A stretch of DNA of 43,105 bases from NCBI RefSeq assembly GCF_000820725.1, contig NZ_CCXH01000090.1, forward strand, positions 1 through 43,105. The letters are read 5' to 3'. Positions 10,613 through 41,941 of the stretch are shown here, one piece after another. The position numbers and the translations under genes were made by a program. The notes beneath the pieces were generated by a model, which was given only the letters and a program-made list of their open reading frames with translations, had not been told where the DNA came from and did not search any database. The number at the start of each line of letters is the position of its first letter. Position 1 is the first letter of the stretch. The DNA is from Actinomyces polynesiensis (GTDB lineage: Bacteria > Actinomycetota > Actinomycetes > Actinomycetales > Actinomycetaceae).

Positions 10613-10701
10613 TGCACCCCTGGCTCTGCAGGAGGGACCACATGTGTGTTGACATCGCTGTCACAGCACCTCGACAGATTAGCACCTGTCCCAAACCCGG
10701 T

Positions 10702-10721: not shown

Positions 10722-10734
10722 CGAGAATGTGTCC

Positions 10735-14096: not shown

Positions 14097-16897
14097 GATT
14101 CCTCCTCTGGTCCTGCCCGTGTGATGTCAGGTGCCACCAGCGCGTCCCCGGAGCGGAGCGTCACGACCGCCCCGGCGGGCACGGGGTGGTCCCAGAGATC
14201 GACCGGGCCGGTGGCACCCAGTCCCTCCATGTCCGTGGGCGACCACGACCCCACTGCCCTGACGCGCATCGGTTCCGGCTCGCGACCGTAGTTCACGAGA
14301 CGGGCCTCCAGACCTGTCTCCCCCACCCGTCGAAGGGACTCCAGGGCGACGCGGCCCTCCGTGACCAGTGGACCGGAGGACTGCCCGGGACCCGCTGCCC
14401 CAGCGGACGCCGCACTGCCCGCGACCGTGACGGGGTCGAACCGGAAGACGTCGGAGTGCTCCACGACACCGGGTCCCGACCCGTCACCGGCGGAGAGGTC
14501 GAGGGCGAAGGAGGCGCGCACGTGGACCCCCACGTACTGGGCCCCCGGGACGGCCAGCTCGGACCCCGCCGGCTCGTCGCGCAGGGGATGGACGTTGACG
14601 CTCATGAGCCCCACGGCCCTCAGCACCGTCAGCGCGATGTCGGTCGTGCCCCCACCGGGGCGGTCGACGAGCTCGTACTCCGTGAGCTTGTCGAGGAGGA
14701 CGCCGGCCGACCCGGCCCGGACGAATCGTGTGGCGGGGAAGGTGGGGAGGGGGAACTCCCCCCACCCGCCCTCGGCACCGCGTCCACGGGTGGTCACCCC
14801 GAACTGTCCTGCCGAGGAGGACTCGGCCACCGCCGCCACTCCTGTCGGCACGAGCACCCGCAGCCGGTGGTCGCGCACGGTGTTGACGAGCTCCACCTCC
14901 ACGCGCAGGAACGGTTCGCCGACGCGGAGCTCGAGGTGCGTGTCCACCTCCTGTTCCACCGTCTCGGAGGAACGCCGTGAGCGATCGGACGGGTCCAGCC
15001 CACGGGGCAGCCGGTAGCGCCTGCGGACGCGGATCCGTCCCCGCAGCGGGCCGGACTCCACGATGTCGACGTCGACGGACACCGGTTCCCGGACGGTTCC
15101 GCCCCCCAGGGGACCGAAGTTGTAGGAGTCCCCCCGGTCCCCCTCGTCGACGAGGCCCAGGGCATCGGTGATGCGCCTGCCGCTGACCGGGTCCTCCACC
15201 TCAACGAGACCTGTCGGCCGGACACGGACCGTGACGAGGGAGTTGCCAATCGAGGCGGACGCCCCGTCGACCTCGACCGGTGCTCCCCCCGGCCTGGAAT
15301 GGCCGGGGACCAGGGGCACCACGGAGTTCCCGGGCACGTCGGCGCCCACCAGCACCCGGCTCCGGGGCGGGGTGACCGTGAGGACGTGCCACAGGTGGTC
15401 CTCGGTCGTCCCCGCCACTCGCCGGGAGAGCTCGTCGGAGAACTCCGCGAGGTCGAAGTCCCCGGCGGCGGACTCCGCGACCTCGAAGACGAGCTCGCGA
15501 CCCTCCCAGCTCCACCCCCTGATCTGTCCCCCGAACAGCTCCTGGCCGTGGATGCGCCGCAGCAGCCTGGGGAGGTCCCGCGAGGTCATCGACTCGTCAC
15601 CGATGACGGTGTCGAGTTCCTCCAGGAGTTGCGTGTCCGCGGGCAGGTCGTCCACGGTCCGCTCGACGACGACCTCGGTCAGGACGGTGCGCCCCCAGCC
15701 GGACTGGTTGAAGACGGCGACGGAGCCACGGGGTGCACACGCGGCGAGCCGGGGGAGACAGGTGTCGATGGCACCCCGGGCGGTGTGGGTCGCCACATGG
15801 AGCCTGGACTCGACCTCCTCGGCGGTCTCGTCCACACCGCACCCCGTGACGGAGTCGTGGGCGGTGGACTCGACGACCATCCTCCACCCCCTGCGGAAGA
15901 GGGCCGACCGTGACGGGCCCCCCGCCCACGCGTCGAGTCGTTCCGCCGTGGTGAGGGCCCGTTCCGCGGCAGCCATCGCGGCCTTGATGTTCGTCCGGAC
16001 GGAGAAGACCCCGGGGAGGATGTTGCCGCGGGCGTGGGAGCGCAGCTCACCGCGCACGAGGGGCAGTGCCCCGAGGGCCTCCGGGGTGTGGTCCCTGGAG
16101 TCGATGACCTCCCCGACCGTCGCGATGCGCAGGGCGAGCCCGGGCGAGACCTCGTGGACGCCCTCGACCACCTCGACGAGGTCCTGCCGAGGCAGCATGT
16201 GGTCGGTGCCGAACATGCCCGCGGCGGGCTCCCCCCGGAACCAGGCGGCATTGGTGCGCAGGTACTCGCCGATGAGTTCCGGTGCCCTGTCCAGGGGGTC
16301 GAAGAGCTTCAGCGCGCTCCCGTAGCCGTCCCACAGGTACTCGACCCTGACGCGTTCCCCGTCGAGTGCCTCCCACTCGAAGGCGTGCTCGCGCACGGAG
16401 TCGGGGACACCCCGCCACAGCGCGGCGTCCGCGATCCCGAACCCGCGCAGGATCTGCGGCATCTGTGCTGCGTGCCCGAACATGTCCGGCAGGTATCCCA
16501 CGCGCATCTCGGTGCCCACCCGCCGGGCGGCCTCGATCCCGAGCTCGAGGTTGCGCACGATGGTCTCCCCGTCGCAGCAGAACTCGTCGAGGAGGATCAG
16601 GAAGGGACCCACCGCCAACTGGCCGCGTTCCACCGCCGAACGCAGCCGACCGGCCGCCTCGGGGCGGATCTCCAGGTAGTCCTCGAAGGCCGCGCTCTGT
16701 CCGTCCAGGGTGAACCGGTAGTCGGGTTCGGACTCCAGGAGGTCCAGGAGCGCATCCACCATGACCACCAGGCGTGCCCGGAAGACGTCATGGGGTTCGT
16801 ACCACTCCCGGTCCCAGTGGGTGTGGGGGACGAGCCACATCGCCGGGGGGGCCGCCGCGCCCGGAGCGGACGACCCGGGCTCGGAGGCACCGTTCAC
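14093..16897 (-). CDS. GH38 alpha-mannosidase (cytoplasmic)
   Basis: GH38 enzymes are zinc-dependent retaining alpha-mannosidases. The metal and active-site motifs are present: VPHTHWDREWY (residues 23-33) and GYLPDMFGHAAQMPQIL with the likely nucleophile D138, followed by a GTDHMLP block. At 934 residues it has the usual bacterial length, with the helical middle and beta-sandwich C-terminal domains. There is no signal peptide. The GTG start at 16897 overlaps the ABC ATPase stop (GTGA). The next in-frame candidate, ATG at 16840, begins right at MWLVPHTHW and would leave almost no N-terminus. Its co-expression with an importer implies it cuts short alpha-mannosides inside the cell, complementing the surface GH92. 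Confidence 0.93.
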   Translation of the reverse strand: MNGASEPGSSAPGAAAPPAMWLVPHTHWDREWYEPHDVFRARLVVMVDALLDLLESEPDYRFTLDGQSAAFEDYLEIRPEAAGRLRSAVERGQLAVGPFLILLDEFCCDGETIVRNLELGIEAARRVGTEMRVGYLPDMFGHAAQMPQILRGFGIADAALWRGVPDSVREHAFEWEALDGERVRVEYLWDGYGSALKLFDPLDRAPELIGEYLRTNAAWFRGEPAAGMFGTDHMLPRQDLVEVVEGVHEVSPGLALRIATVGEVIDSRDHTPEALGALPLVRGELRSHARGNILPGVFSVRTNIKAAMAAAERALTTAERLDAWAGGPSRSALFRRGWRMVVESTAHDSVTGCGVDETAEEVESRLHVATHTARGAIDTCLPRLAACAPRGSVAVFNQSGWGRTVLTEVVVERTVDDLPADTQLLEELDTVIGDESMTSRDLPRLLRRIHGQELFGGQIRGWSWEGRELVFEVAESAAGDFDLAEFSDELSRRVAGTTEDHLWHVLTVTPPRSRVLVGADVPGNSVVPLVPGHSRPGGAPVEVDGASASIGNSLVTVRVRPTGLVEVEDPVSGRRITDALGLVDEGDRGDSYNFGPLGGGTVREPVSVDVDIVESGPLRGRIRVRRRYRLPRGLDPSDRSRRSSETVEQEVDTHLELRVGEPFLRVEVELVNTVRDHRLRVLVPTGVAAVAESSSAGQFGVTTRGRGAEGGWGEFPLPTFPATRFVRAGSAGVLLDKLTEYELVDRPGGGTTDIALTVLRAVGLMSVNVHPLRDEPAGSELAVPGAQYVGVHVRASFALDLSAGDGSGPGVVEHSDVFRFDPVTVAGSAASAGAAGPGQSSGPLVTEGRVALESLRRVGETGLEARLVNYGREPEPMRVRAVGSWSPTDMEGLGATGPVDLWDHPVPAGAVVTLRSGDALVAPDITRAGPEEES

Positions 16898-17985
16898 CGC
16901 TCGCCACCACCGATCCTGGTCCCGTTCCCCGCGTCGAAGAGGAGCGTCTTCGACACGGGCATGGTGAACCAGCACTGCTGACCGACCTCGGGGAGCGGGT
17001 CCTCGGCGACCACGGCCTGCAGACGCGCCCCACCGACACGGGCGGTCAGCAGGACGCTGGCCCCGAGGTTCTCCACCGTGGCGACCTCCGAGCCGATGGC
17101 CCCGTCCACCGCCTGCGCGGACCACCCCACGTACTCCGGTCGCACACCCCACACGACCTCGAGGCCGTCCTCGACCCCCTCCAGCACCCCGGCACGGACG
17201 GGCAGCTCCGTGCCGTCGGCGGTGCGCACCGCGCCGCCCGAGACGCGGGCATCGACGAGGTTCATCGGGTGTGAACCGATGAAGGAGGCAACGAAGGTGT
17301 TGATCGGATCGTGGAAGACCTCCCGCGGGGTGCCGATCTGCTGGATCCGCCCCTCCTTCATGACCGCGATCCTGTCGGCCAGGGCCAGGGCCTCCGACTG
17401 GTCGTGGGTGACGAACACCGAGGTCACGCCCAGCTCCTGTTGGAGCTCCTTGAGGAAGGACCGTGCCTCGAGACGCAGGCGAGCGTCGAGGTTGGAGAGG
17501 GGTTCGTCCAGGAGCAGGACCCTCGGTCTGGTGGCGATCGCCCTGGCGAGGGCCACCCGTTGCTGCTGGCCACCGGAGAGCTGACCGGGGCGGCGCTCCA
17601 GCAGCGCGCCCAGCGAGAGCTTCGCGGCCGTGTCGGTGGCGACGGCGCGACGGTCCTCCTTGGGGACCTTGCGCACCCGCAGGGGATAGGCGATGTTGTC
17701 GCTGACGTCCATGTGCGGGAAGAGCGCGTAGTCCTGGAACACCATCGCGACCCCGCGGTCGCCGGGTTCGCGGTCCGTCATGTCCTCGTCCCCGATGAGG
17801 AGCTGTCCCTCGGTGATCGACTCGAGCCCGGCGATCGAGCGCAGCAGGGTCGTCTTGCCGCACCCGGAGGGGCCCAGCAGGGCGAAGAACTCCCCGTCGT
17901 CGATCCGCAGGTCCACCCCGTCGACGCCCCGTACCCCGTTCGGGTACTGCTTCACCAGGGATGTGGCGGTGATGGTAGCGGTCAT
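16894..17985 (-). CDS. ABC transporter ATP-binding protein of the sugar (MsmX/UgpC/MalK) type
   Basis: Energises the adjacent sugar importer. In 363 residues it has Walker A GPSGCGKT (38-45), Q-loop FQD (83-85), signature LSGGQQQR (136-143), Walker B LLLDEP (157-162) and the H-loop in VFVTHDQSEA. A C-terminal TOBE-type domain follows (FIGSHPMNLVDARV onward), as in MalK-like subunits. It overlaps both neighbours by 4 nt. Many Gram-positive genomes share one ATPase between several sugar importers. Here a dedicated subunit is encoded in the operon, so this importer is self-contained. Confidence 0.96.
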   Translation of the reverse strand: MTATITATSLVKQYPNGVRGVDGVDLRIDDGEFFALLGPSGCGKTTLLRSIAGLESITEGQLLIGDEDMTDREPGDRGVAMVFQDYALFPHMDVSDNIAYPLRVRKVPKEDRRAVATDTAAKLSLGALLERRPGQLSGGQQQRVALARAIATRPRVLLLDEPLSNLDARLRLEARSFLKELQQELGVTSVFVTHDQSEALALADRIAVMKEGRIQQIGTPREVFHDPINTFVASFIGSHPMNLVDARVSGGAVRTADGTELPVRAGVLEGVEDGLEVVWGVRPEYVGWSAQAVDGAIGSEVATVENLGASVLLTARVGGARLQAVVAEDPLPEVGQQCWFTMPVSKTLLFDAGNGTRIGGGER

Positions 17986-21220: not shown

Positions 21221-21274
21221 CCGGTGACACGGCACCGGTTCCCGGATGTCGGGCGGGGCCGGTCAGCCCCGCCC
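21221..21274 (-). promoter_or_regulatory. Two consecutive RNA hairpins between the Gfo/Idh gene and the solute-binding gene
   Basis: A perfect 9-bp GC stem (GGGCGGGGC at 21251-21259, GCCCCGCCC at 21266-21274, 6-nt loop) has the Gfo/Idh stop codon in its loop. A second stem CCGGTG-N6-CACCGG (21221-21238) follows on the transcript, just before the solute-binding gene. Such structures before binding-protein genes often set mRNA ends and raise the stoichiometry of the binding protein. Partial termination is the other option. Confidence 0.55.
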
Positions 21275-22432
21275 CTGTCTTCCAACTTCGCCCTGGGGAT
21301 CGATCGTGATCCCGTCTGACTCCGCGCAGGCCCTCCACAGCGCCTGTGCGGTGATGAGGTCCTCGCGCGCCTGCACGGGACCGGAACCGGAGGGGTCCGA
21401 CCCCCGTCCGAGATCGGCGAGCATGCGGAGCTCCTGCTCGAATGCCTCCTCCTGGGGCCACGTGGTGCAGGTCTCGGCGGCGCCCAGCGGTCCTGAGGCC
21501 TCCCTGACGCGCAGCTCGGTGGGGGCATTGAGGATGTAGGGGGTGCGGAACAGGAGTTCCAGCGTCCCCTTCTCGTGGTGGATGGTGACGGTCTCGCGGT
21601 ACTCGGGACAATCCGCGATGAAGTGCCACCCCATCGTCCAGACACCGTCGCCCACCGTCGTCCCGACCACGGTCAGGGAACCGGGGAAGCCGGGACCCGT
21701 GCGCCTGGCGGTGTCGACCCGCACGAGGGGGACTCCGAGCGCCCGCGTGAGGGAGATGTCGTGGATCACCGATCCGAGGACGACATTGGTGTAGAGGGCG
21801 CGCATCGTCGGGTCAGGAGTGCCGAGCGTGCGGTCCAGCAGCAGGTCCATCGAGCGCCTCGAACGGGCGGCGACCACGGGAGGGATGTCGTCGGTGGGCG
21901 GCTGGAGGTGGGCGAAGGAGAGCTGACGGGCATCGGCGGGGTGGAGGACCTCCACCCGTACGGCACGCACGTCCAGGTCCCTGGTCAGTTCCGCGGCGCG
22001 GCGGACTGCCGGGTCGTACTCCTTCATGTAGCCGACACGCACCCAGTGGGAGGGATCCCGGGAACCGGCCCTGATCCTCTCCTCGAGGCCGTCGAGCTCC
22101 TCCAGGGAGTAGGCGAGGGGCTTCTCGACCAGGACCCTGATCCCTGCCGCGACCAGGGCGGCGGCATCCTCGACGTGGCTGCCCGTGGAGGCGAGGACCG
22201 CGACGTCGACCGGGGCGGTTCCCGCCTCCACCGCCTCGACCAGGGCGGGTACCGAGGAGAAGCGCCGGGCCTCGGGCACGCAGTTCAGTCCGCCGACCGT
22301 CGCCAGCCGGGACGGGGAGACGTCGACGACTGCGGTGAGGTCGAAGGTCTCCCGGTTGCGTCGGACCAGGGGGAGGTGGACCGTCTGGGCGATCGTGCCG
22401 AGTCCGACGACCGCGATCCCCAGCCCCGTCAC
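21263..22432 (-). CDS. Gfo/Idh/MocA-family NAD(P)-dependent oxidoreductase
   Basis: Oxidises or reduces a sugar or sugar derivative. The Rossmann motif AVVGLGTIAQ is at residues 7-16, with VVDVSPSRL after the second strand and the family EKP triad at 103-105 (VLVEKPLAYS). At 389 residues it has the usual length, with the C-terminal beta-sheet domain. The GTG at 22432 is preferred: GGAGG lies 8 nt upstream and its codon overlaps the stop of the TIM-barrel gene (GTGA). A GTG at 22441 would sit inside that SD sequence. Pairing with an IolE-like protein recalls inositol and 3-keto-glycoside systems. The precise substrate is unknown. Confidence 0.9.
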   Translation of the reverse strand: MTGLGIAVVGLGTIAQTVHLPLVRRNRETFDLTAVVDVSPSRLATVGGLNCVPEARRFSSVPALVEAVEAGTAPVDVAVLASTGSHVEDAAALVAAGIRVLVEKPLAYSLEELDGLEERIRAGSRDPSHWVRVGYMKEYDPAVRRAAELTRDLDVRAVRVEVLHPADARQLSFAHLQPPTDDIPPVVAARSRRSMDLLLDRTLGTPDPTMRALYTNVVLGSVIHDISLTRALGVPLVRVDTARRTGPGFPGSLTVVGTTVGDGVWTMGWHFIADCPEYRETVTIHHEKGTLELLFRTPYILNAPTELRVREASGPLGAAETCTTWPQEEAFEQELRMLADLGRGSDPSGSGPVQAREDLITAQALWRACAESDGITIDPQGEVGRQGRG

Positions 22433-23355
22433 GGGACCCACCTCCGGAGGCGGTCACGGTTCCTGCGTTGGTCCTCGACCGCGCGGCGCACGTCCGCGAC
22501 GTCCATCAGCACGACGTCCTGCTCGACGACGACCCATCCGTCGTACCCCGATTCCACGAGCCGGTCCATGAAACCGGGCACGTCCACGTCTCCCTCGCCC
22601 AGGGCGACGAAGACGCGCCTCTCCCAGATGTCGCGCACGGGGTCGTCGGACCCCCTCCCCGCCACCATGACCTCCCGGTCGACGTCCTTGAGGTGGACGT
22701 GGTTCACACGGTCCTGCCACCGCTCCAGCGCCTCGAGGGGGTCGCCACCCCCGAGGACGAGGTGACCGGTGTCGAGCGTGAGGTCGATCGTGGTGTCCTC
22801 GAGCAGGCGGTCGATCTCCACGGGCGTCTCCACGTGGGTGACGGCGTGGTGGTGGAAGGTGGGCTCGAGCCCGAGGTCACGGACCTCCCCGGCGACCCTC
22901 TCGACCCGCCGCGCGAAGGTGTCCCACCGTTCGCGGTCGAGGGAGAGGCCCGGACCTCCCCCCGGGTGACGCCTGCGCTCCTCGGAACCGGAGTCGGCGA
23001 TCGTCGGGAGGGGGGCTGGTCCGTCCTGACGGGAGGCGACCGTCGCGAAGTCGTCCAGCACGGCACGGGCCTGCGTCAGGGCTGCGTCGAAGTCCCGGTC
23101 GGATCCCGCGAACGGGAAGTCCAGCCACCCCCCGCACAGGCGCAGTCCGTGCCGCTCAAGGTTCTCCACGAGGGCGGTCCCGGTGCCGAGGAGTCCGTGG
23201 GGTCCCAGGTCGACACCCTCGTACCCTGCGCCCTGCACCAGGTCCAGCAACTCCTCCCCGCCGGGCAGCGGGACGCGGTCGGGACGTGAGAGGGCGAAGA
23301 CTCCGTAGGAGACGGGCGCGTTCGCGGACAGGATCAAGATCGGGCACCTCCACAT
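22429..23355 (-). CDS. Sugar phosphate isomerase/epimerase-like TIM-barrel protein (IolE/AP-endonuclease-2 fold)
   Basis: First gene of the mannoside operon. It has the xylose-isomerase-like TIM-barrel motifs with likely metal ligands: FHHHAVTHVET (residues 167-177), LTLDTGHLV (192-200), NHVHLKDVD (218-226) and a C-terminal WVVVEQD (274-280). At 308 residues it resembles inosose dehydratase or hexulose epimerase relatives. The start is uncertain. ATG at 23355 is taken, but TTG at 23337 with GGAGG at a suitable distance upstream is a good alternative and gives a more family-like N-terminus (MILSANAPVSYGVF). It lies 46 bp downstream of the ROK-type operator and overlaps the Gfo/Idh gene by 4 nt. 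Confidence 0.85.
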   Translation of the reverse strand: MWRCPILILSANAPVSYGVFALSRPDRVPLPGGEELLDLVQGAGYEGVDLGPHGLLGTGTALVENLERHGLRLCGGWLDFPFAGSDRDFDAALTQARAVLDDFATVASRQDGPAPLPTIADSGSEERRRHPGGGPGLSLDRERWDTFARRVERVAGEVRDLGLEPTFHHHAVTHVETPVEIDRLLEDTTIDLTLDTGHLVLGGGDPLEALERWQDRVNHVHLKDVDREVMVAGRGSDDPVRDIWERRVFVALGEGDVDVPGFMDRLVESGYDGWVVVEQDVVLMDVADVRRAVEDQRRNRDRLRRWVP

Positions 23356-23462: not shown

Positions 23463-24698
23463 CTAGGAACCGCTGCCGCCCACCACCGGGGAGGCCCTGC
23501 GCGGCGCACGTGGAACGTACCGCTGGTCGAGGACCACCGATGCCGCACCGATCGCACCCACGTCCGCCCCCATGGCCGTGGAGAACACGCGCACCGGGTG
23601 GGGCCCCCGTGCCGAGGGCGCGGCCAGCGTCGAGATCGCGACCGGCTCGTACCACGGGCGCACGAGCTCCCAGTAGGGACCACCGAACACCGCCATGTCC
23701 GCATCGACGAGCTCGGTCGCCATCAGCACCATCTCGGCGATGCGCACGGCGGCCTGCTGGAGGAGGTCGGCGGCGTCACCACCGTCCCGCGCCGCGATGG
23801 CGCACAGCCGCCGGAAGTCGCGGTCCACCCCACGACGGTCCCGCGGACCCGGCGCCGGCTCGTCCAGGATCCCCGACTCGTGGGCCTTCGCGACGACGGC
23901 AGCGGGATCGTTGTCGATGCCACCGGCACGCCGGTCGTCACGGGCCCCCACCGCCACCAGCATCGCGCCGACCTCGCCCGCGTTCCCCGAGAACCCCCTC
24001 ACGGGTTCCCCGTTGAGGGAGAGCCCCACACCCGTGCCCGCACCGAGGTAGACGAAGACCATGGTGGCGTCCAGCGACTCCCCGCCCCGGACCCAGTTCT
24101 CACCGATGACGGCGGCGAGGGTGTCCTTGACGACCGGCACGGGGAAGCCGAGATGGGTCCCCAGGGCCCTCCCGACGGGGAAGCCGGTCCAGGCGGGCAT
24201 CCAGACCGAGTGCCAGGGCGCCTGGGTGACGGGGTCGATCGGGCCCGGGGAGGCGACGCAGGCACCGACCACCCGACCGCGGTCCACCCCGGCGCCCCGC
24301 ACCAGCCTCGTGGCACCCTGCGCAAGGTCCTCGACCGTGCGCCCGGGGTGGTCCAGGTCGACCTCGTCCTGCGAGGAGGAGGCCACCACCGTCCCCTTCA
24401 TGTCGAGGAGCACCGTCGTCACCAGTGCCGGGTCGATGTGGAAGCCGATGGCATAACGTGCGGATGCCACGAGGTCGATGATGACGCGGGGACGTCCGCG
24501 CCCGACCGACTCGGTCGTCAACTCCCTGACCAGACCGCGCACGGCGAGACCACGGAGAATGGCCGACACCGTCTGCACCGAGAGACCCGACATCTCCGCG
24601 ATGGGCCCCTGGCTGGAGGGACCGAGTCGACGCAGGGAGTGGATCACCACGTTCTCGTTGTACTTCGCAACCCTGCTGAGACTTGATCCAGCGCGCAC
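23463..24698 (-). CDS. ROK-family transcriptional repressor lacking the zinc-cysteine motif
   Basis: Predicted repressor of the mannoside operon. It has an N-terminal winged helix (about residues 12-75, with GLSVQTVSAILRGLAVRGLV) followed by a ROK sugar-sensing domain. ROK-like landmarks remain: GACVASPGPIDP, VYLGAGTGVGLSLNGEPVRG and GNAGEVGAML. The usual CxCGxxGCxE zinc-binding motif that should follow is absent, and the N-terminal DxGxT phosphate loop is replaced by HIDPALVT. It is therefore not a kinase and differs from NagC/Mlc proteins, which keep the cysteines. The GTG start has AGGGAGG 7 nt upstream. It is transcribed toward the operon it probably controls, with 107 bp between them, and divergently from the symporter fusion. 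411 residues. Confidence 0.88.
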   Translation of the reverse strand: MRAGSSLSRVAKYNENVVIHSLRRLGPSSQGPIAEMSGLSVQTVSAILRGLAVRGLVRELTTESVGRGRPRVIIDLVASARYAIGFHIDPALVTTVLLDMKGTVVASSSQDEVDLDHPGRTVEDLAQGATRLVRGAGVDRGRVVGACVASPGPIDPVTQAPWHSVWMPAWTGFPVGRALGTHLGFPVPVVKDTLAAVIGENWVRGGESLDATMVFVYLGAGTGVGLSLNGEPVRGFSGNAGEVGAMLVAVGARDDRRAGGIDNDPAAVVAKAHESGILDEPAPGPRDRRGVDRDFRRLCAIAARDGGDAADLLQQAAVRIAEMVLMATELVDADMAVFGGPYWELVRPWYEPVAISTLAAPSARGPHPVRVFSTAMGADVGAIGAASVVLDQRYVPRAPRRASPVVGGSGS

Positions 24699-24817: not shown

Positions 24818-27202
24818 ATGACCCCTGCACCCCCCGACAGTGCGTCCCGACGCCCCACCTCACCGGCGCGGTACGCCGTCGGAATGTTCGGGACGTCGAT
24901 CCCCATCAACGTCATCAAGGGATCGATGCTCTACTTCTACGTGTCGGTCCTCGGCATGGACCTGCGCGCCTACGCCGCGGTCTACACGGTCTACGGCGTG
25001 ATCGACGCGATCGACAACCCGATCTTCGGGCACATCTCCGACCGCACCCGGTCACGGTGGGGACGACGCAAGCCCTACCTGATCGTGGGCGCCCTGGTCC
25101 TCATGTGCTCGATGGCGGCGCTCTTCTGGGTCCCCGACGCGGTCACCGCGCGCACGACGACCCTCCTCGTGGCCTGGTTCGCGGTGTTCGCCATCCTCTC
25201 GGAGGCCTCCGACTCCCTGATCAACGCGAACTACGGGGCGCTCCTGCCGGAGCTGTTCCCGCAGGAGAAGCGTCGCGCCCTGGCCAACTCCCTGCGCCAG
25301 GGTTTCCAACTCGTGGCGATGGTCCTCTCCCTCGGCCTGACCCCCCTCCTCACCAGGCAGGTCCTCGGCTGCGAGGTCACGGACGTCACCTGCTCGGACC
25401 CGACAGTGGGGTACCGGTGGCTGTCCCTGGTCTACGGGGTGCTGGGGGCCGGCGTGATCATCTTCATGGCCCTGGGCGTGCACGAGAACACGCAGATCGA
25501 GGACACGGTCAGGCCACGGTTCCTCCACTCGATCAGGGACGTGGTCACCAACCGCTACTTCTGGACCGTCGGGCTGGTCTCAGCGCTCTACGGGGCCTCC
25601 ATGGCACTCCTCCTGGGTGGCCTCCAGTTCTACGTACGGCATTCGCTCGGGGGCACCGCACTGGACGCGACCATCCTCCAGGTCGTCGTCATCCTCGCCT
25701 CCGTGGGATTCCTGGTCGGGTGGACAGCGGTCGTTCGCAGGCTCGGCGCCGCCCGCACGTGGCGCATGGCACTGCCCATCGCAGCGGCCAGCTTCCTTCC
25801 CCTCTTCCTGGCGCGGGACCTCGTCACCGGGATCATCGCCGGTCTCTGCGTCGGGTTCGGGTACGCGGGCCTGCTCGCCACGAACGACCTCATCATGGCC
25901 CGGGTGCTGGACGACGACGCACGCAGGACCGGTGTCCACCGCGAGGGCATCTTCCTGTCGGCCTTCGGGGTGCTGGGCCGACTCTCCGCGATCCCCACAT
26001 CCGTCGCGCTGCTGTCCCTGGGATGGTTCTTCGGGTACCGGTCCGGGGACGTCCCGGGCGCGGATCCGGGGACTGCCTGGCGTGTCTACATGTCCCTCTA
26101 CCCCTTCGCGTTCCTCGCCCTGGGCTCCCTGATCTCCCGCTTCATCCACCTTCCCGCGGACGCGTCCCCGGACTCCTCCGAGTTGCCCGACTCAGCCGGA
26201 CCGCCCGACTCCCCCGGACTGCCCGGGTCACCGGCCCCCGGGGCCCCTCGACCCCACTGCGGATCCCGGGCGCCCAGGCGTGGCCACCTCCGGGCCGTGG
26301 GACGGAGGTGCCCAATGACCCGGGTGGAACCGACCTCGCCGGACGCCACGACGCCGGCGGGACAGCGGAACCTCGTCCTCACCGCCGATGACTTCGGGTA
26401 CGACCCGGGGACGAGCGCGCTCATCGTCTCCCTGTTGGAGAAGGGTTGCGTGTCCGCGACCACCGTCCTCGCCGTCGCCGGGGACCTCCGGGACCAGGTG
26501 TCCCCGCTCCTCGACGTGACGCAGGGCCGCTGCGGACTCCATGCCGCGACGAACTCGGACAGGGGCCCCGCCCCGTGGCGCCCCCTGTCGTCGCCCGGCA
26601 CGGCACTGGCCGATCCGGACGGCCTCCTCCCCGACGACCCCCTCGTCGCCGAGCAGCGGGCGACACCCGATGTCATCAGTGCGGAACTGCACGCGCAGAT
26701 GTCCCACCTCCTCGCGTCGGGGCTCACTCCGGTGCGGCTCGACTCCCACTCGGGCACGCTCTACGGACTCCACGGGAACTCGATGCTGGGGGTGGCCATC
26801 TCCTTCTGCGCCGAGCACCGACTGGGACTGCGACTGCCGCGCACACTCGGTCTCCTCGCGGGACCACGGCCCCCCGAGCACCTGCGCCTGGCCCATTCCC
26901 GGGCGGTGGCCGCCGCGGATGCGTCAGGGGTGACCCTCCCCGTCGAGGTCGCCACCGATCCACGCCCCCACGACCGGATCGAGGACTACGCGGACCTGCG
27001 TGCCCACTACGTCTCCCTCCTCCGCTCGCTGCCCGAGGGGACGAGCGAGATCTTCCTGCACCCCGGCGCGGACTCCCCCTGGTCGCGGGCCCACATGGGC
27101 CCGGCCTGGCGCAAACGCCTGTGGGAGGCGCGCCTCCTGGAGGACCCCCACTGGCACCGGATGATCGAGGAGGAGGGGATCAACCTGGTCGCCACGTGGT
27201 GA
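24818..27202 (+). CDS. Fusion: GPH-family sugar:cation symporter with C-terminal ChbG/YdjC-like carbohydrate deacetylase
   Basis: One uninterrupted frame of 794 residues. Residues ~15-445 are a 12-helix GPH transporter with the signature DNPIFGHISDRTRSRWGRRK. A Pro/Ser-rich linker (about 446-499, with PDSAGPPDSPGLPGSPAPG) follows. Residues 500-794 are a ChbG/YdjC-type deacetylase with ADDFG (523-527) and DSHSGTLYG from D642. These enzymes remove N-acetyl groups from amino-sugar oligosaccharides. GPH proteins have both ends in the cytosol, so the enzyme would sit at the inner mouth of the transporter. The ATG at 26315 has its own GGAGG, so a separate deacetylase may also be made. The ATG at 24818 is chosen as it leaves a short tail; 24770 and 24683 are alternatives. 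Confidence 0.85.
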   Translation: MTPAPPDSASRRPTSPARYAVGMFGTSIPINVIKGSMLYFYVSVLGMDLRAYAAVYTVYGVIDAIDNPIFGHISDRTRSRWGRRKPYLIVGALVLMCSMAALFWVPDAVTARTTTLLVAWFAVFAILSEASDSLINANYGALLPELFPQEKRRALANSLRQGFQLVAMVLSLGLTPLLTRQVLGCEVTDVTCSDPTVGYRWLSLVYGVLGAGVIIFMALGVHENTQIEDTVRPRFLHSIRDVVTNRYFWTVGLVSALYGASMALLLGGLQFYVRHSLGGTALDATILQVVVILASVGFLVGWTAVVRRLGAARTWRMALPIAAASFLPLFLARDLVTGIIAGLCVGFGYAGLLATNDLIMARVLDDDARRTGVHREGIFLSAFGVLGRLSAIPTSVALLSLGWFFGYRSGDVPGADPGTAWRVYMSLYPFAFLALGSLISRFIHLPADASPDSSELPDSAGPPDSPGLPGSPAPGAPRPHCGSRAPRRGHLRAVGRRCPMTRVEPTSPDATTPAGQRNLVLTADDFGYDPGTSALIVSLLEKGCVSATTVLAVAGDLRDQVSPLLDVTQGRCGLHAATNSDRGPAPWRPLSSPGTALADPDGLLPDDPLVAEQRATPDVISAELHAQMSHLLASGLTPVRLDSHSGTLYGLHGNSMLGVAISFCAEHRLGLRLPRTLGLLAGPRPPEHLRLAHSRAVAAADASGVTLPVEVATDPRPHDRIEDYADLRAHYVSLLRSLPEGTSEIFLHPGADSPWSRAHMGPAWRKRLWEARLLEDPHWHRMIEEEGINLVATW
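26304..26317 (+). promoter_or_regulatory. Internal ribosome site and start codon inside the symporter-deacetylase frame
   Basis: GGAGG (26304-26308), 6-nt spacer, ATG (26315-26317), in the same frame as the symporter. It begins MTRVEPTSP just before the deacetylase domain. It suggests two formerly separate genes whose stop was lost, or dual production of fused and free enzyme. Confidence 0.6.
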
Positions 27203-27378: not shown

Positions 27379-27399
27379 GATTTTGTGGAGCACTGGTGG

Positions 27400-27415
27400 T
27401 CGAACATGTGTTCTA
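27400..27415 (+). promoter_or_regulatory. LexA (SOS) box
   Basis: TCGAACATGTGTTCTA closely fits the actinobacterial SOS box TCGAAC-N4-GTTCGA, with a single mismatch in the outer bases. The core is GAACA-TG-TGTTC. It lies 13 bp before the start codon of the DUF222-HNH gene, where bound LexA would block transcription or ribosome access. DUF222/13E12-type genes of mycobacteria are known members of the LexA regulon, which supports the call. Confidence 0.8.
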
Positions 27416-27428
27416 CTACGATGGGGTC

Positions 27429-29024
27429 ATGGAAGCACCGACCTCCCTCCCAGTGGCCCCACCGGGGCAGGCCAGCACCTCGGCCCTGCCCGGGCGGGAG
27501 TCCACTGCGCCCGTGTCGGGCCGGGAGATGCCCGGCCCCAAGGGCCCGACGGGGGTGGTGGGCCCGACGGGATCTGGGGGCCCGGCAGGGGTGGAGGGCC
27601 CGACGGGAGTGGAGGGCCCGACGGGATCTGGGGGCCCGGCGGGAGTGGAGAGCCTGGCGGGGATCTCCGCGCTCCTGCGTGACGGGGCCACCCTGGTGGA
27701 GGCGTGCAGTGAGAGGGAACTCGTTGACCTCATCGGGCAACTCGAGGACATCAAGAACCAGTGCAGCGCGGCCCAGACCCATGCGGCCCTCGCCCTGGAG
27801 GACGCCCGCGAGACCCGGGCCACCACCCCAGGGGAACGCGAGGCCGCGCACCGCAGTGTCGTCAGTGAGATCGCCCTGGCACGCCGCGAGTCCCCCCACC
27901 GCGCCCGCACCCTCCTCGGACTCGCCACCGCCCTGCACACCGAACTCCCCCACACCCTCGCCCACCTCGCCGCCGGGCGCATCAGTGAGTACAGGGCCAC
28001 CCTCGTGGCCCGCGAGACCGCCTGCCTGGACCCCCAGGACCGGCGGGTGGCCGACCGGAAACTCGCAGAAGGCCTCCCCTCCTGGTCCAACCGGGAAGTC
28101 TCCACCCACGCCCGACACATCGCCTACACCCTGGACCCCCACGCCATGGTCACCCACATCGAGCGGGCGGAGGGGGACCGCCACGTCACCATCCGCCCCG
28201 CCCCCGCCTGCATGGCCCTCATCACCGCCCTCCTACCCGCAGCCCAGGGCGTCGCCGTCCACGCAGCCCTCCTGCGCGCCGCCGAATCCGCCCACGCCAC
28301 AGGGGACGCGCGCGCACGCGCACAGGTCATGGCCGACACCCTCGTCACCCGCATCACCGGACAGGACAGACCCGAGACAGTCCCCATCGAGGTCCGCCTC
28401 GTCATCACCGACGACACCCTCCTGGGACAGGGCGACACCCCCGCACGCCTCATCGGCTACGGACCCGTCCCACCCACCATCGCCCGACGACTCCTCACCC
28501 ACACCACCAGTGGCAGTGGCTCCGGCGACGACCGCGACAATGGCACCGGCAGTGGCAACCGCAGTGGCGACGACACCACCCTCCTCGTCCTGGACGGCGC
28601 AGCGGAGAACACCTCCACCGGCAGTGGCACCCCCAATGACACCGAGACCCAGACCCGCCAGTGGATCCGACGCCTCTACGCCCACCCCACAACCGGCCAA
28701 CTCATCGCCATGGAATCCACCCGCCGCCTCTTCCCACCCGGCCTGCGCCGCTACATCGCCACCCGCGACGCCAACACCTGCCGCACGCCCTGGTGCGGGG
28801 CACCCATCGCCCACATCGACCACGTCACGCCCGCACGCAACGGAGGCCCCACCACTGCCACCAACGGCCAAGGCCTGTGCATCCACTGCAACCAGACCAG
28901 GGAAGCACCCGGCTGGGACGCACACGCCCACCCCGACGGCACCATCACCCTGACCACACCCACCGGACACACCCACACCACCCGACCACCACCACTGCCC
29001 CACACCAGAGCCCCAGCCGCCTGA
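27429..29024 (+). CDS. DUF222-HNH endonuclease family protein (13E12-type) with collagen-like N-terminal segment
   Basis: A 531-residue protein of the actinobacterial DUF222-HNH group. After about 35 residues comes an uninterrupted run of 13 Gly-X-Y triplets. The DUF222 helical region covers about residues 75-320 (SERELVDLIGQLEDIKNQCS to the ARARAQVMADTLVTRI segment). A Gly/Ser/Asp/Asn-rich low-complexity insert follows (about 357-395). The C-terminal HNH nuclease reads RDANTCRTPWCGAPIAHIDH, then NGGPTTATNGQGLCIHCNQT with the expected His, Asn and Cys residues. The ATG at 27429 is chosen because an upstream GTG (27396) would place the LexA box inside the gene. Members are DNA-damage-inducible and often occur in several copies per genome; their target is unknown. 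Confidence 0.9.
   Translation: MEAPTSLPVAPPGQASTSALPGRESTAPVSGREMPGPKGPTGVVGPTGSGGPAGVEGPTGVEGPTGSGGPAGVESLAGISALLRDGATLVEACSERELVDLIGQLEDIKNQCSAAQTHAALALEDARETRATTPGEREAAHRSVVSEIALARRESPHRARTLLGLATALHTELPHTLAHLAAGRISEYRATLVARETACLDPQDRRVADRKLAEGLPSWSNREVSTHARHIAYTLDPHAMVTHIERAEGDRHVTIRPAPACMALITALLPAAQGVAVHAALLRAAESAHATGDARARAQVMADTLVTRITGQDRPETVPIEVRLVITDDTLLGQGDTPARLIGYGPVPPTIARRLLTHTTSGSGSGDDRDNGTGSGNRSGDDTTLLVLDGAAENTSTGSGTPNDTETQTRQWIRRLYAHPTTGQLIAMESTRRLFPPGLRRYIATRDANTCRTPWCGAPIAHIDHVTPARNGGPTTATNGQGLCIHCNQTREAPGWDAHAHPDGTITLTTPTGHTHTTRPPPLPHTRAPAA
27534..27650 (+). repeat. Tandem repeats encoding a collagen-like (Gly-X-Y)13 segment
   Basis: The 117 nt code for 13 perfect Gly-X-Y triplets, mostly GPT, GVE, GSG and GPA. 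Two 36-nt units (27561-27596 and 27615-27650) differ at only two bases and are separated by an 18-nt partial unit. Such repeats expand and contract by slippage, so length is expected to vary between strains. Confidence 0.9.
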
Positions 29025-31229: not shown

Positions 31230-32267
31230 GTGGCGAAGCGAACAACCATGGCCGACGTGGCCGCACACCTGGGCGTGTCGGTGGCGACGGTGAGCATGGT
31301 CCTCAACGACCGCCCGGGTTCACGGATCCCCCAGGAGACGAAGGACCGGGTCCGCCGTGCCGCCCTCGAACTCGGGTACGCGCCCAATGCGGCCGCCCGG
31401 AGCCTGCGCACGGGTCACAGCCACGCGATCGGCTTCGTCTCGGACGAGGTGATGATCACCCGCTTCGCCTCCGCCATGATCCGCGGGGTCCTCGACGTCG
31501 CGGACGAGCGCGGGTACGCGGTGCTCATGGCGGAGACCGACCACAGCGTCACCCGCCTCGCACGGGCGACGGACGCGCTGACCGCGCAACGCATCGACGC
31601 CCTCGTCCTCGGGCTCATGCACGCCCGTCGCGTCGACCTGCCCGACCTGGGTGAGCTGCCCCCACACGTCCTCGTCAACGGGGCGACCGCCGGGTGGCAC
31701 TCGATCCTGCCCGACGAGTACACGGCGGGCCGCACGGCAGCGGACCACCTCATCGAACGGGGACATCGGCGCATCGCCCTCATCGGACGGTCTGCCCTGC
31801 ACCTGAACCCCGCGGAGTCGGTCACCATCACCCGCCGCATGGCGGGCATCGATGACCGGATGGCGGAGGCGGGCCTCCCGCTGGCCGTCGAGTACGAGGG
31901 AGCCGACTGGGAGCCCGACCTGGGGTACCGCGGTGCCCGGGCGATCCTGCCCGCGTCCGGGGTCACCGCGGTCATCGCGGCGAACGACCGTGTGGCCTTC
32001 GGCGTCTACTCGGCCGCGCAGGAGATGGGCATGTCGATCCCCGGGGACCTGTCCGTGATCTCCTTCGATGACGAGCAGCTGGCCACCTACCTGCGACCAC
32101 CGGTCACGACCCTGCGACTCCCCTACTGGGAGATGGGCGCTGCCGCGACGACGATGCTGCTCGACGACGTGGAGCACGGCACCCCGGGCACTCCCGCGCC
32201 CGATGGCGAGACCCTGGTCCCCATGCCGCTGGTCGTGCGGGAGTCGGTCCGCGACATCCGCGCCTGA
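31230..32267 (+). CDS. LacI-family regulator of the sucrose-type locus
   Basis: A 345-residue LacI repressor. The helix-turn-helix is TTMADVAAHLGVSVATVSMV (about residues 6-25), with the hinge at PNAAARSLRTGHS. The sensor domain begins HAIGFVSDEVMITRFASAMI and includes VLVNGATAGWHSILPDEYTA and VISFDDEQLATYLRPPVTTL. A GTG start at 31230 is chosen; ATG at 31248 would cut into the DNA-binding domain. A -10-like TAGAAT lies at 31203-31208, implying a leader of only about 15 nt. The downstream symporter and GH32 genes with a LacI-type operator suggest it senses sucrose or a fructoside (inference). Confidence 0.92.
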   Translation: MAKRTTMADVAAHLGVSVATVSMVLNDRPGSRIPQETKDRVRRAALELGYAPNAAARSLRTGHSHAIGFVSDEVMITRFASAMIRGVLDVADERGYAVLMAETDHSVTRLARATDALTAQRIDALVLGLMHARRVDLPDLGELPPHVLVNGATAGWHSILPDEYTAGRTAADHLIERGHRRIALIGRSALHLNPAESVTITRRMAGIDDRMAEAGLPLAVEYEGADWEPDLGYRGARAILPASGVTAVIAANDRVAFGVYSAAQEMGMSIPGDLSVISFDDEQLATYLRPPVTTLRLPYWEMGAAATTMLLDDVEHGTPGTPAPDGETLVPMPLVVRESVRDIRA

Positions 32268-32284
32268 GGGGCGCGTCCGGACCT

Positions 32285-32373
32285 CCCCGACCCCGGTTCC
32301 GGAGGCGCCCGGTACGCGGGGTGATTCGCACTGATCTTCGCCGAGCCCCGACCCCGGTTCCGGAGGCACCCGG
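32285..32373. repeat. Pair of 28-bp direct repeats after the LacI gene
   Basis: Two copies (32285-32312 and 32346-32373) of a 28-bp unit, identical but for one base and offset by 61 bp. Each contains CCGGTTCCGG. They lie between the LacI stop and the csc-type promoter. They could be a local duplication or weak terminators. No mobile-element features accompany them. Confidence 0.75.
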
Positions 32374-32415
32374 GCGACCCGCACCACCCGGGGCGTCACC
32401 CGGGACCTTGGACCT

Positions 32416-32470
32416 TTGCGCGACACCCGCGCTGTGCTAGCTTGCTCTCAGTGCTTTAACGATTAAGCAC
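32416..32470 (+). promoter_or_regulatory. Promoter and LacI-type operator of the sucrose symporter-GH32 genes
   Basis: TTGCGC (32416-32421) and TAGCTT (32438-32443) are 16 bp apart. GTGCTTTAACGATTAAGCAC (32451-32470) starts 7 bp after the -10 box, at the likely transcription start. The arms GTGCTT/AAGCAC are perfect and the centre is A-n-CG-n-T, the classical LacI-family operator layout. It is AT-rich relative to the surroundings. The repressor encoded just upstream is the probable ligand. Confidence 0.82.
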
Positions 32471-32523
32471 CGCACGGGCGCAACAGCGGCGCCCGTCCAC
32501 TCAGAGAGGAGTGCTGGACGACG

Positions 32524-33825
32524 ATGGCCAGCTTCACGAAGTCACTCAAGAACCCCGCCTACCTCCAGAGTTCCCTGACGATGCTGCTGTTCTTCGCATC
32601 GTGGGGCATCTGGTGGTCCTTCTTCCAGATCTGGCTGACGAACGAGAAATCGGGTCTGGGCCTCTCCGGCGCCCAGGTCGGGACCGTCTACTCGGTCAAC
32701 TCACTGGCGACACTGGTCATCATGCTGTTCTACGGCACCCTGCAGGACAAGCTGGGGACCAGACGCCACCTGGCGATCCTCGTCGCCGCACTCACCACTC
32801 TGGTCGGCCCCTTCTGCATCTGGGTCTACCGACCCCTGCTGGAGAACCAGTTCATGCTCGGCGTGGTCCTCGGCGCCATCGTCCTGTCTGCCGGCTTCAT
32901 GGCCGGTGTCGGACTCCTGGAGGCCCTGACCGAACGCTTCAGCCGCCGGTACGGGTTCGAGTACGGCCAGGCCCGCATGTGGGGTTCCTTCGGCTACGCC
33001 CTCGTCGCCCTCGCCGCCGGCTTCCTCTTCGTCATCAACCCCGCCCTGAACTTCTGGCTGGGATCCGCCTTCGGCCTGGCCAACCTCCTGATCCTCCTCT
33101 TCTGGAAGCCCGGCGAGAAGGCCGCGACGACGCTCCGTCCGGAGGACGTCGAGGACGAGGTCGAGGTCCCCGCCTCCACCCCCGGGATCCGCGAGATGGT
33201 CGGCCTCCTGAAGATGCCCGCCCTGTGGCTGATCATCGTCTTCGTCATGTTCTCCTGGACCTTCTACACGGTCTTCGACCAGCAGATGTTCCCCGACTTC
33301 TACACCAGCCTCTTCCAGACCCAGGAACGCGGCCAGCAGGTCTACGGGACCCTGAACTCCGCGCAGGTCTTCCTCGAGGCCGCCATGATGGGTGTCGTCC
33401 CCGTCGTCATGCGCAAGGTCGGCGTGCGCAACGCCCTGCTCATGGGCGTGACCATCATGTTCGTGCGCATCCTCGGCTGCGCCGTGCTCAGCGACCCGAT
33501 CGCCGTGTCCGCGGTCAAGATGCTCCACGCCCTGGAGGTGCCTCTGTTCATCCTCCCGATCTTCCGGTACTTCACCCTCCACTTCAATCCGGCACTCTCC
33601 GCCACCCTGTACATGGTGGGCTTCCAGATCTCCGCGCAGGTCGGCAACGTCATCCTGTCGACGCCCCTGGGGTGGCTGCACGACCAGATCGGCTACCAGC
33701 CGACCTTCCTGGTCATCGCGGGAACCGTCTTCCTCTCCGGGATCTACGCGTTCTTCGTCCTGAAGAGGGACGACGTCGAGGTCCTGGGTGACCCCTTCGT
33801 GAGGGAGCCCGCCACGATCGCCTAG
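32524..33825 (+). CDS. Oligosaccharide:proton symporter, LacY/CscB-type MFS transporter (probably sucrose)
   Basis: A 433-residue membrane protein with 12 predicted helices in the oligosaccharide:H+ symporter group. The N-terminus MASFTKSLKNPAYLQSSLTM leads into helix 1. The helix 2-3 loop GTLQDKLGTRRH is the MFS loop signature. The central segment FSWTFYTVFDQQMFPDFYTS resembles the LacY/CscB YDVFDQQF region. It stands between its regulator and a GH32 beta-fructosidase, so sucrose uptake is the likely role; raffinose or short fructans are possible. GAGAGGAG lies about 12 nt before the start. Confidence 0.88.
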   Translation: MASFTKSLKNPAYLQSSLTMLLFFASWGIWWSFFQIWLTNEKSGLGLSGAQVGTVYSVNSLATLVIMLFYGTLQDKLGTRRHLAILVAALTTLVGPFCIWVYRPLLENQFMLGVVLGAIVLSAGFMAGVGLLEALTERFSRRYGFEYGQARMWGSFGYALVALAAGFLFVINPALNFWLGSAFGLANLLILLFWKPGEKAATTLRPEDVEDEVEVPASTPGIREMVGLLKMPALWLIIVFVMFSWTFYTVFDQQMFPDFYTSLFQTQERGQQVYGTLNSAQVFLEAAMMGVVPVVMRKVGVRNALLMGVTIMFVRILGCAVLSDPIAVSAVKMLHALEVPLFILPIFRYFTLHFNPALSATLYMVGFQISAQVGNVILSTPLGWLHDQIGYQPTFLVIAGTVFLSGIYAFFVLKRDDVEVLGDPFVREPATIA

Positions 33826-33891
33826 ACGCGACGACACCGAGCCACGAACGACACGACCACCACACACGACGGAGTGAGAGGCAGGAGCACC

Positions 33892-35382
33892 ATGACCACC
33901 ATGAAGGAACAGCTCGAGAGGGCGGAGCAGGGCGTCGACACGCTGCTGCGCACGCGCAGGGACCGCTGGTACCCGACCTTCCACATCGCCGCCAAGGCGG
34001 GGTGGATCAACGACCCCAACGGCCTGTCGTACTTCCACGACCGCTACCAGGTCTTCTTCCAGCACCACCCCTTCAGCACGGAGTGGGGACCGATGCACTG
34101 GGGCCACGTCTCCAGTTCCGACCTGGTGACCTGGAGGCGGGAGCCGATCGCCATGGCCCCCAGCATCGAGGCCGACCGCGACGGTGTCTTCTCCGGATCC
34201 GCCGTGGTCTCCGACGACGGTAAACTCGTCGTCTACTACACCGGCCACCGCTGGCGCAACGGCGTCAACGAGGACGACGGCAACCTCCAGGTCCAGTGCA
34301 TGGCCGTCTCCGATGACGGCGTCAACTTCCACAAGCTCGGCACCATCGTCGAGTGCCCGGACGGGCTCCTGCACTTCCGGGACCCCAAGGTCTGGCGCAC
34401 GGGGGACACCTGGTACATGGTCTTCGGCGCCTGCTCCGCCGACAAGCGCGGCCAGGTGTGGCTCTACACCTCCCAGGACATGCACACATGGGCCTTCGAC
34501 CGCGTCGTCTACGAGGACCCGGACCCCGACGTCTTCATGCTCGAGTGCCCCGACATGTTCCCCCTGGGGGACAAGTGGGTCATCGGGTACTGCCCGATGG
34601 GTCCGCGCCCCCAGGGCTACGTCGGTCGCAACGGCCACAACGCGGGCTACGTCGTAGGTTCGTGGCAGCCGGGGAAGGAGTTCCACCAGGAGACCGACTA
34701 CCGGCTGTGCGACTGGGGGCACAACTACTACGCCCCCCAGACCATGCTCGCCCCCGACGGGCGGCGTCTCGTGTTCGGCTGGATGGGGTCCTTCACGCTG
34801 CCGGTGGCCACCCAGGCGGAGGACGGATGGTGCGGGCAGCTCACCGTCCCCCGCGAACTCACCCTGGGCGAGGACCTGCACGTGCACGCCGTCCCCGCCC
34901 GGGAGCTCACTGCCCTGCGCGAGGACACGGTCGACTTCGGGTCCTTCGAACTCGGAGCGAACGAGGACAAGCTCCTCCTGGAGGACGCCGAGGACGTCGA
35001 GATCGAGCTGGAGGTGGACCTCACGCGCACGACCTCGGAGCGTGTGGGCCTCAACGTCCACAAGACCCCGGACGGGCACCACACCTTCGTCTGCTACGAC
35101 GACCTGGCCCACCGCGTGGTCATCGACCGGCGGGACTCCGGCAAGGGCGACCGTGGCTACCGGGGCGCCCCGTTCACCGGTGACCACCTGAGCCTCAGGG
35201 TCCTGGTGGACCGCGGGTCCATCGAGGTCTTCGTCAACGGGGGCCAGGAGACGGTGACCTCCTTCAGCTTCCCGAACGAGGGCGCCCGCGCCCTGGAGTT
35301 GACCTCGGAGTCGGGGACGATCGCGGTGGAGTCGCTGAGGGTCCACCACCTCCGCACGATCTGGGAGACGCCCGACCGCTGA
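33892..35382 (+). CDS. GH32 beta-fructosidase (sucrose or sucrose-phosphate hydrolase)
   Basis: Hydrolyses sucrose or short fructosides, 496 residues, no signal peptide, so it acts on imported sugar. All three catalytic blocks are present: WINDPNG (38-44) with nucleophile D41, HFRDPKVW with transition-state stabiliser D164, and ECPD with acid/base E218. The five-blade propeller is followed by the usual C-terminal beta-sandwich (GFGSFELGANEDKLL-like region to the VDRGSIEVFVNGG segment). The ATG at 33892 has AGGAG 5 nt upstream; GTG at 33874 is less likely. It lies 66 nt behind a non-PTS symporter, so free sucrose rather than sucrose-6-phosphate is expected. Confidence 0.94.
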   Translation: MTTMKEQLERAEQGVDTLLRTRRDRWYPTFHIAAKAGWINDPNGLSYFHDRYQVFFQHHPFSTEWGPMHWGHVSSSDLVTWRREPIAMAPSIEADRDGVFSGSAVVSDDGKLVVYYTGHRWRNGVNEDDGNLQVQCMAVSDDGVNFHKLGTIVECPDGLLHFRDPKVWRTGDTWYMVFGACSADKRGQVWLYTSQDMHTWAFDRVVYEDPDPDVFMLECPDMFPLGDKWVIGYCPMGPRPQGYVGRNGHNAGYVVGSWQPGKEFHQETDYRLCDWGHNYYAPQTMLAPDGRRLVFGWMGSFTLPVATQAEDGWCGQLTVPRELTLGEDLHVHAVPARELTALREDTVDFGSFELGANEDKLLLEDAEDVEIELEVDLTRTTSERVGLNVHKTPDGHHTFVCYDDLAHRVVIDRRDSGKGDRGYRGAPFTGDHLSLRVLVDRGSIEVFVNGGQETVTSFSFPNEGARALELTSESGTIAVESLRVHHLRTIWETPDR

Positions 35383-40326: not shown

Positions 40327-40536
40327 TCACCTGTCGGTCGGCACGGCCCGTGTGCCCCGCTGCGCGGGCCGTGCCCCGTGGCATCTCGACCTCCCGGCCG
40401 CCCCCGAGGTCGATGACCCCAGGGCGAGGAGGGACAGTGACGTGAGTATTGCCACAACACCCACCGGCAGCCTGTTGGAGATGAACAGGGCCACGCACAC
40501 GGCGAGCACGAGGAGGGTGATCACTGCTTCCGACAC
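40327..40536 (-). pseudogene. N-terminal remnant of an SLC13/DASS-type transporter
   Basis: The frame starts GTG with GGAGG upstream and reads VSEAVITLLVLAVCVALFIS, then NRLPVGVVAILTSLSLLALG, which is the typical first hydrophobic segment of SLC13-type (dicarboxylate/sulphate) permeases of 450-600 residues. After about 40 residues the sequence turns into Arg/Gly/Ala-rich non-conserved text and stops at 69. The rest of the transporter is absent from this spot. It is best read as a 3-prime-deleted pseudogene that keeps its ribosome site. A real small membrane protein cannot be excluded. Confidence 0.65.
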
Positions 40537-40811
40537 GGTCCCTCCGATCCCCGTCGACCCCGGGTGGATCCGGGTGGGCGGCAGGTGCCGTCCGGCCCGC
40601 AGGACCGGGGTGCACCAGCGGTTGGCATGGCTGACGACGACCCCGCCACACCCCAGATCCTAGGAGCAACGGGGTCCCCCGGGGCGTCCCCACGCGTGGG
40701 GGTCCCGAGTCCCGGACGGTGGTCCCCCGTCGGGGTCGGGAGGAGGGTTCTCCCCTCCTGGGGACGGTCGCGACGTCGCCACGGGGGTTCCCCGGGAGGC
40801 GGCGGGGGCAT
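40537..40811. other. Hairpin-rich intergenic region upstream of the siderophore operon
   Basis: No gene is supported here. Several perfect inverted repeats occur: CCCCACGCGTGGGG (40688-40701) and AGGAGGG-TTCTC-CCCTCCT (40741-40759), plus smaller GC stems around 40715-40730. They may include a terminator or an RNA leader. No known riboswitch pattern was recognised. Confidence 0.4.
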
Positions 40812-40830
40812 TAAGGTAAGCCTGCCCTCA
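40812..40830 (+). promoter_or_regulatory. DtxR/IdeR iron box of the siderophore uptake operon
   Basis: TAAGGTAAGCCTGCCCTCA matches the 19-bp DtxR consensus TTAGGTTAGCCTAACCTAA at 14 positions, including the central GCCT. It lies 39 bp upstream of the binding-protein start. Iron-loaded DtxR would repress the operon, giving uptake under iron shortage. Confidence 0.8.
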
Positions 40831-40869
40831 CGTAATTGAGGGCCCCGTCACCACCCACAGGAGGTCCCC

Positions 40870-41937: not shown

Positions 41938-41941
41938 ACCC

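Follow-up and report, generated by a model that had tools for sequence, protein, structure and literature searches.

The open frame and its two genes

The window, meaning the whole stretch of 43,105 bases analysed here, is a 43-kb contig within a 2.88-Mb draft assembly of 309 contigs. On its plus strand a single stop-free frame runs from an ATG at 24818 to a TGA at 27200-27202 and encodes 794 amino acids, in which Pfam places two domains, both above their cut-offs: MFS_2 at residues 19-445 (193 bits vs 27) and YdjC at residues 518-785 (109 bits vs 29.7). The uninterrupted symporter-deacetylase frame described in a sequence-only reading of this DNA is therefore present. The frame stays open upstream as far as a TTG at 24683; the start at 24818 coincides with the beginning of the tblastn match in Actinomyces provencensis SN12, and agrees with matches that begin at residue 1 or 2 in three other relatives (L013, L014 and L017). 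PF04794 was found at E <= 0.001 in a single place in the whole genome, the frame at 24818-27202. The region between the two domains, proposed as a Pro/Ser linker of about 55 residues, is indeed stop-free, and about 29 of its residues (446-474) are Pro/Ser-rich as described. These, however, are the symporter's own tail, and the linker is only apparent in that it has two further parts, about 25 residues (475-499) translated out of frame and the deacetylase's own N-terminus, which starts at Met500 (26315). The features of the pair and its junction, all on the plus strand, are:

24818-26239, plus: GPH/MelB-type sugar:cation symporter, part in frame with relatives (Pfam MFS_2; 98% identical to SN12)
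26218-26240, plus: site of the length differences from SN12, with an 18-base tandem unit absent at 26218 and a net +1 in CCCCCGGGGCCCC at about 26240
26241-26314, plus: stretch translated outside the symporter's proper frame (stray residues about 475-499), 74 bases identical to SN12
26304-26308, plus: GGAGG, a Shine-Dalgarno-like motif read directly, 6 bases upstream of the deacetylase ATG and the same in SN12
26315-26318, plus: ATGA, the deacetylase start overlapping the symporter TGA of SN12, here out of the symporter frame
26315-27202, plus: YdjC/ChbG-type carbohydrate deacetylase, 295 aa, complete (Pfam YdjC, 109 bits)

The MFS_2 score puts the symporter in the GPH family by the Pfam criterion, and it resembles GPH symporters such as MelB in its full-length domain match, with the melibiose carrier as its best solved sequence relative (phmmer to 4m64, E=1.3e-8, aligned over most of the length). 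It differs from them in its long Pro/Ser tail and in falling below the NCBIfam TIGR00792 cut-off (138 vs 231 bits). The C-terminus of MelB is cytosolic, and by analogy that of this symporter should be as well. The deacetylase belongs to the YdjC/ChbG superfamily, with PF04794 over its cut-off and six active-site residues present: Asp25, Asp26, His76, His145, His249 and Arg268 are invariant in 18 of 18 aligned deacetylases (17 relatives and the window, the alignment leaving out L017, L034, L066 and L067). In the part of the Klebsiella ChbG report consulted, D10, D11, H61, H125, H206 and R223 are described as coordinating the metal, acting as catalytic base and acid, or taking part in binding (PMC9402603). 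The six invariant residues are the predicted counterparts of this Asp-Asp-His-His-His-Arg set, matching it in order and spacing, with phmmer covering part of the correspondence. The likeness does not extend to the chitin disaccharide deacetylase model, NCBIfam NF002559, against which the protein scores 41 bits vs a cut-off of 227.

The junction compared with its nearest relative

Among the loci found, the nearest relative is that of A. provencensis SN12 (L012), which is 99.18% identical to the window over 14.4 kb (blastn), with both proteins 98-99% identical. In SN12 the symporter and deacetylase are two genes that share an ATGA, in which the TGA (7516) closes the symporter, whose C-terminus reads ...GGAQ, and the ATG (7515) opens the deacetylase. 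The length differences in the 14.4-kb alignment are an 18-base loss at 26218, a gain of one base near 26240 and a difference at the extreme edge (27234). The first two fall in the symporter's Pro/Ser tail and account for the distance from one ATG to the other, which is 17 bases shorter in the window than in SN12 (-18 +1). The 18-base loss leaves the reading frame unaffected and the single extra base changes it, so that the net +1 near 26240 brings the symporter frame into coincidence with the deacetylase frame and hides the stop; when the frame of SN12 is followed past the extra base, the window meets a TGA at 26316-26318 after 24 codons. Close to the extra base, a few positions away in the G/C run of CCCCCGGGGCCCC, the window also shows an A-to-C difference relative to SN12. 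Codon comparison with SN12 gave 7 synonymous and 7 non-synonymous differences in the GPH gene and 0 synonymous and 3 non-synonymous in the YdjC gene, which are too sparse for showing selection. The 18-base tandem unit, which lies in the symporter tail (26180-26240) and codes for Pro/Ser, is unequal in copy number between the window and SN12.

Gene layout in relatives

We surveyed 21 places in 21 genomes in which a GPH gene is followed immediately by a YdjC gene in the same orientation, counting the layout of each pair from its open reading frames. Duplicates (L039, the same place as L006; L003, the same as L012; L004, the same as L013), the window's own genome (L001, L002 and L021) and YdjC matches with no adjacent same-strand upstream GPH gene (L022-L031 and L041-L046) were omitted; of the other loci, L009 and L010 match weakly, L011 is another piece of L007, and L015 and L016 are GPH matches with no YdjC match seen within the fetched stretch. 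L017 was kept in the count although its deacetylase is divided between two frames. No pair is fused (0/21), all 21 relatives having a stop between the symporter and deacetylase genes. The sequence-only reading had proposed a search for the same fusion in other genomes and had named a stop between two genes in relatives as one half of the evidence against it; the former was found in none of the 21, the latter in every one. High open-frame values in L003 and L005 (817 and 776), considered as possible further fusions, come from out-of-frame open stretches across the symporter gene.

In 19 of the 21 relatives the two genes share a four-base NTGA (ATGA, GTGA or TTGA), with the deacetylase in the overlapping frame. 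TTGA is confined to L017, and there a further ATG follows 5 bases past the stop's first base. The two exceptions are L034, which has an ATGA but a deacetylase match starting 52 bases later in a different frame, and L048, in which the TGA is in the same frame and the next ATG lies 12 bases further. Five or more families of a single actinobacterial order share the overlap. Because YdjC relatives with no adjacent upstream GPH gene exist (L022-L031 and L041-L046), the pairing is frequent in the order and not universal. A search with the deacetylase part against 296 genomes of the phylum (E <= 1e-30) matched three: the genome that contains the window and two others from its order. The match to the deacetylase in the Actinomyces ruminis draft (L017, 5152-5990) lies in two frames, indicating a gene break or an assembly error there.

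The absence of a stop is weak evidence of fusion, since the deacetylase frame is already open upstream in most overlapping pairs: for at least 25 codons upstream of its own start in 16 of 19 and for at least 200 codons in 8 of 19. In SN12, where the genes are separate, it is open for 522 codons. As judged from these sequences, the open frame is not beyond what GC-rich sequence with a single indel would be expected to give. In DNA of this kind, a suitable one-base slip in the symporter tail yields a stop-free 'fusion' without selection, and stop-free 'linkers' in high-GC genomes are accordingly poor evidence of fusion in general.

Two coupled genes or one fused protein

Very probably the locus is a two-gene operon with an ATGA overlap, in which a net +1 in a G/C run, real or in error, hides the stop in one assembly. 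A symporter gene followed by a YdjC/ChbG-type deacetylase gene would form an operon joined by the four-base stop/start overlap, and the net +1 in the G/C run of the symporter tail would move the symporter frame into the deacetylase frame, already open. In the relatives, ribosomes that have translated the symporter would stop at its TGA and begin again at the start codon overlapping it, so that the products would be a symporter in the membrane and, separately, a deacetylase in the cytosol; the former may import an N-acetylated sugar, from which the latter would strip the acetyl group. Since the GGAGG and ATG are intact, free deacetylase should still form whether the extra base is an error or a mutation, and if the base is real some fusion protein would be expected beside the free deacetylase made from the internal ATG.

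One study, in the part consulted, reports that short gene overlaps couple translation and are over-represented among the subunits of complexes (PMC10666635). The pairs described here resemble the translationally coupled pairs of that account in the four bases common to stop and start in 19 of 21 relatives, and differ from them in that the TGA in the window is out of the symporter frame and in that coupling is read from sequence. We conclude that the transporter-deacetylase pair is conserved and probably coupled in translation; the enrichment among complex subunits makes a physical association of symporter and deacetylase possible. A functional link between the two proteins, which the sequence-only reading had also proposed, is upheld by the conserved adjacency and the usual four-base overlap. 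From the overlap across families we predict that the two proteins are produced together and work on one and the same imported sugar.

The reading of the fusion as a working design is not supported, with none of 21 adjacent pairs fused and a net frameshift relative to a 99%-identical locus. It would require that the extra base be real and that the cell use a transporter with a tethered cytosolic deacetylase, a private fusion that we consider improbable. In its favour, no stop interrupts the frame, neither domain is damaged, and gene evolution commonly proceeds by the fusion of conserved adjacent genes. A young fusion that works would also be compatible with the intact gene bodies and with there being one close relative alone to polarise the change. 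Against these points, no relative shares the fusion, and both the internal ATG with its GGAGG and the 74 bases past the extra base are unaltered relative to SN12, so that the stray 25 residues show no adaptation; the A-to-C difference a few bases away in the same G/C run also argues against a genuine fusion. A related possibility, to which we give a small chance, is that a coupled and perhaps physically associated import-and-deacetylate unit exists order-wide and that a real one-base change has just tethered transporter to enzyme here. On that reading this would be a fusion at its birth, with free deacetylase still produced from the internal start.

The converse, that the separate genes of SN12 are erroneous and the fused form is true, is hardly conceivable: just two close sequences disagree, which would leave room for it, but 20 further relatives (32-74% protein identity over matched parts) all have a stop between the genes. 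Our overall judgement is of an unremarkable operon of two overlapping genes, with a difference of one base in a single draft assembly; the claim of a fusion needs sequencing reads behind it before it is taken further. A claimed new protein architecture is thereby removed, and the four-base gene overlap takes its place as a simpler, testable statement. In the titles and abstract openings searched, from a literature lying mostly outside subscription journals, no transporter-deacetylase fusion or pair was described.

Origin of the extra base

Whether the extra base is a sequencing error or a true mutation we judge to be about equally likely. The neighbouring A-to-C difference in CCCCCGGGGCCCC may reflect a local consensus error. 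To gauge the assembly we compared other parts of it with SN12, using aligned pieces of at least 800 bases and at least 90% identity and tallying indels regardless of gene position. The aligned parts of two other contigs (L076/L089, 8.2 kb; L077/L079, 3.4 kb; 94-95% identity) contain no isolated net frameshift, indels that are not multiples of three being cancelled within a few bases. With 11.6 kb free of such frameshifts, a generally error-ridden assembly was rejected as an explanation, poor quality not being shown. It follows that the extra base at 26240 could be real, and the same 11.6 kb counts in favour of the private fusion. Other length differences are adjacent insertions totalling 24 bases in a 1.4-kb stretch (L077/L080), one isolated 1-base difference at 40417, upstream of an aldehyde dehydrogenase domain, when 40407-43105 is compared with L068, a 2-base difference at 28628 (within the 27396-29024 open reading frame, its aligned piece ending eight bases away), 1-base differences at the ends of two aligned pieces (27234 and 31166) and a cancelling pair at 11877/11883.

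The idea of a hairpin-driven sequencing artefact at 26240 was dropped as support for an error, single-strand DNA at the site folding no better than shuffled sequence (z = 0.78; 155 of 200 shuffles fold as well). The longest pure G/C run in the last 150 bases before the deacetylase start is 17 in the window. Pure G/C runs longer than 17 occur in the symporter tails of L005, L008 and L033, all unfused, so the run by itself is insufficient to explain the shift. It is highly improbable that slippage at this run toggles expression between two proteins and a fusion as a switchable or programmed frameshift. The unequal number of 18-base tandem units in the window and SN12, and a site that is purely G/C, would suit such a switch; however, the longest single-base run in the same 150 bases is 5, which is short for a contingency locus, and none of the 21 relatives has the exact CCCCCGGGGCCCC in its own last 150 bases.

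Neighbouring genes and possible substrate

The minus strand near the pair carries ROK, IolE-like, Gfo/Idh-type, ABC importer (a substrate-binding protein, SBP, and two permeases), GH38 and CehA/McbA-type genes, with GH92 further off:

4428-10820, minus: GH92 alpha-mannosidase, 2130 aa, with F5/8-type, Big_3_5 and PKD modules (Pfam GH92, 406 bits)
12837-14096, minus: CehA/McbA-family metallohydrolase (NCBIfam, 133 bits, cut-off 80)
14093-17863, minus: GH38 alpha-mannosidase (Pfam GH38N, 106 bits)
23463-24698, minus: ROK-family regulator, divergent from the pair (Pfam ROK, 70 bits)

A LacI-type regulator frame on the plus strand (10603-11772) begins over the 5' end of the GH92 frame. The overlapping IolE-like (TIM-barrel) and Gfo/Idh-type oxidoreductase genes (21263-23355, minus), which lie beside the mannosidase and importer genes and whose NCBIfam matches are below cut-off, hint at an inositol- or keto-sugar step.

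The window combines alpha-mannosidases with an ABC sugar importer (GH92, GH38, SBP and two permeases), as expected of an N-glycan locus. In the parts consulted of reports on the N-glycan genes of Streptococcus pneumoniae and Cutibacterium acnes (PMC5215778, PMC6160142), an ABC sugar importer likewise accompanies a GH38 alpha-mannosidase. The S. pneumoniae set also includes GH92 and a ROK-family gene, and its importer genes are elsewhere in the genome (PMC5215778, PMC6160142). The difference from both is that no GH20, GH85, GH18, GH125 or GH29 was found among the subset of the window's open reading frames scanned with Pfam, nor was any hexosaminidase or endoglycosidase cleaving a chitobiose core found among them, and the word 'deacetylase' is absent from the main texts of both reports (PMC5215778, PMC6160142). 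The sole NCBIfam match of the GH38 protein is to mannosylglycerate hydrolase, below cut-off.

By analogy, the N-glycan setting put forward earlier has local support from GH92, GH38 and the ABC importer, but this does not carry over to relatives: in tblastn searches of 17 relative loci, each 10-16 kb long and containing the pair, a match to the window's GH38 lies near it in just two (L020 and L052). The pair of L052 adjoins a GH38 gene with an ABC importer, and in L013/L020 importer, GH38 and metallohydrolase genes lead into the pair, all in one direction; other relative pairs lie near RNA polymerase, UvrD-type helicase or ribonucleotide reductase genes. Because the pair occurs without mannosidase genes and the deacetylase reaches only 41 of the 227 bits, the further suggestion of a chitobiose-type core as substrate is only a guess. 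Relatives of the metallohydrolase are the more frequent neighbours, standing directly beside the pair in 5 of the 17 loci (tblastn), and a CehA/McbA-family enzyme is a possible third partner of the symporter and deacetylase:

L020, 7136-8389
L054, 8778-9935
L056, 8396-9619
L058, 8769-9950
L062, 5682-6893

Downstream of the pair on the plus strand, a LacI regulator, a LacY-type symporter and a GH32 glycosidase (31230-35382) form a probable sucrose or fructan utilisation operon.
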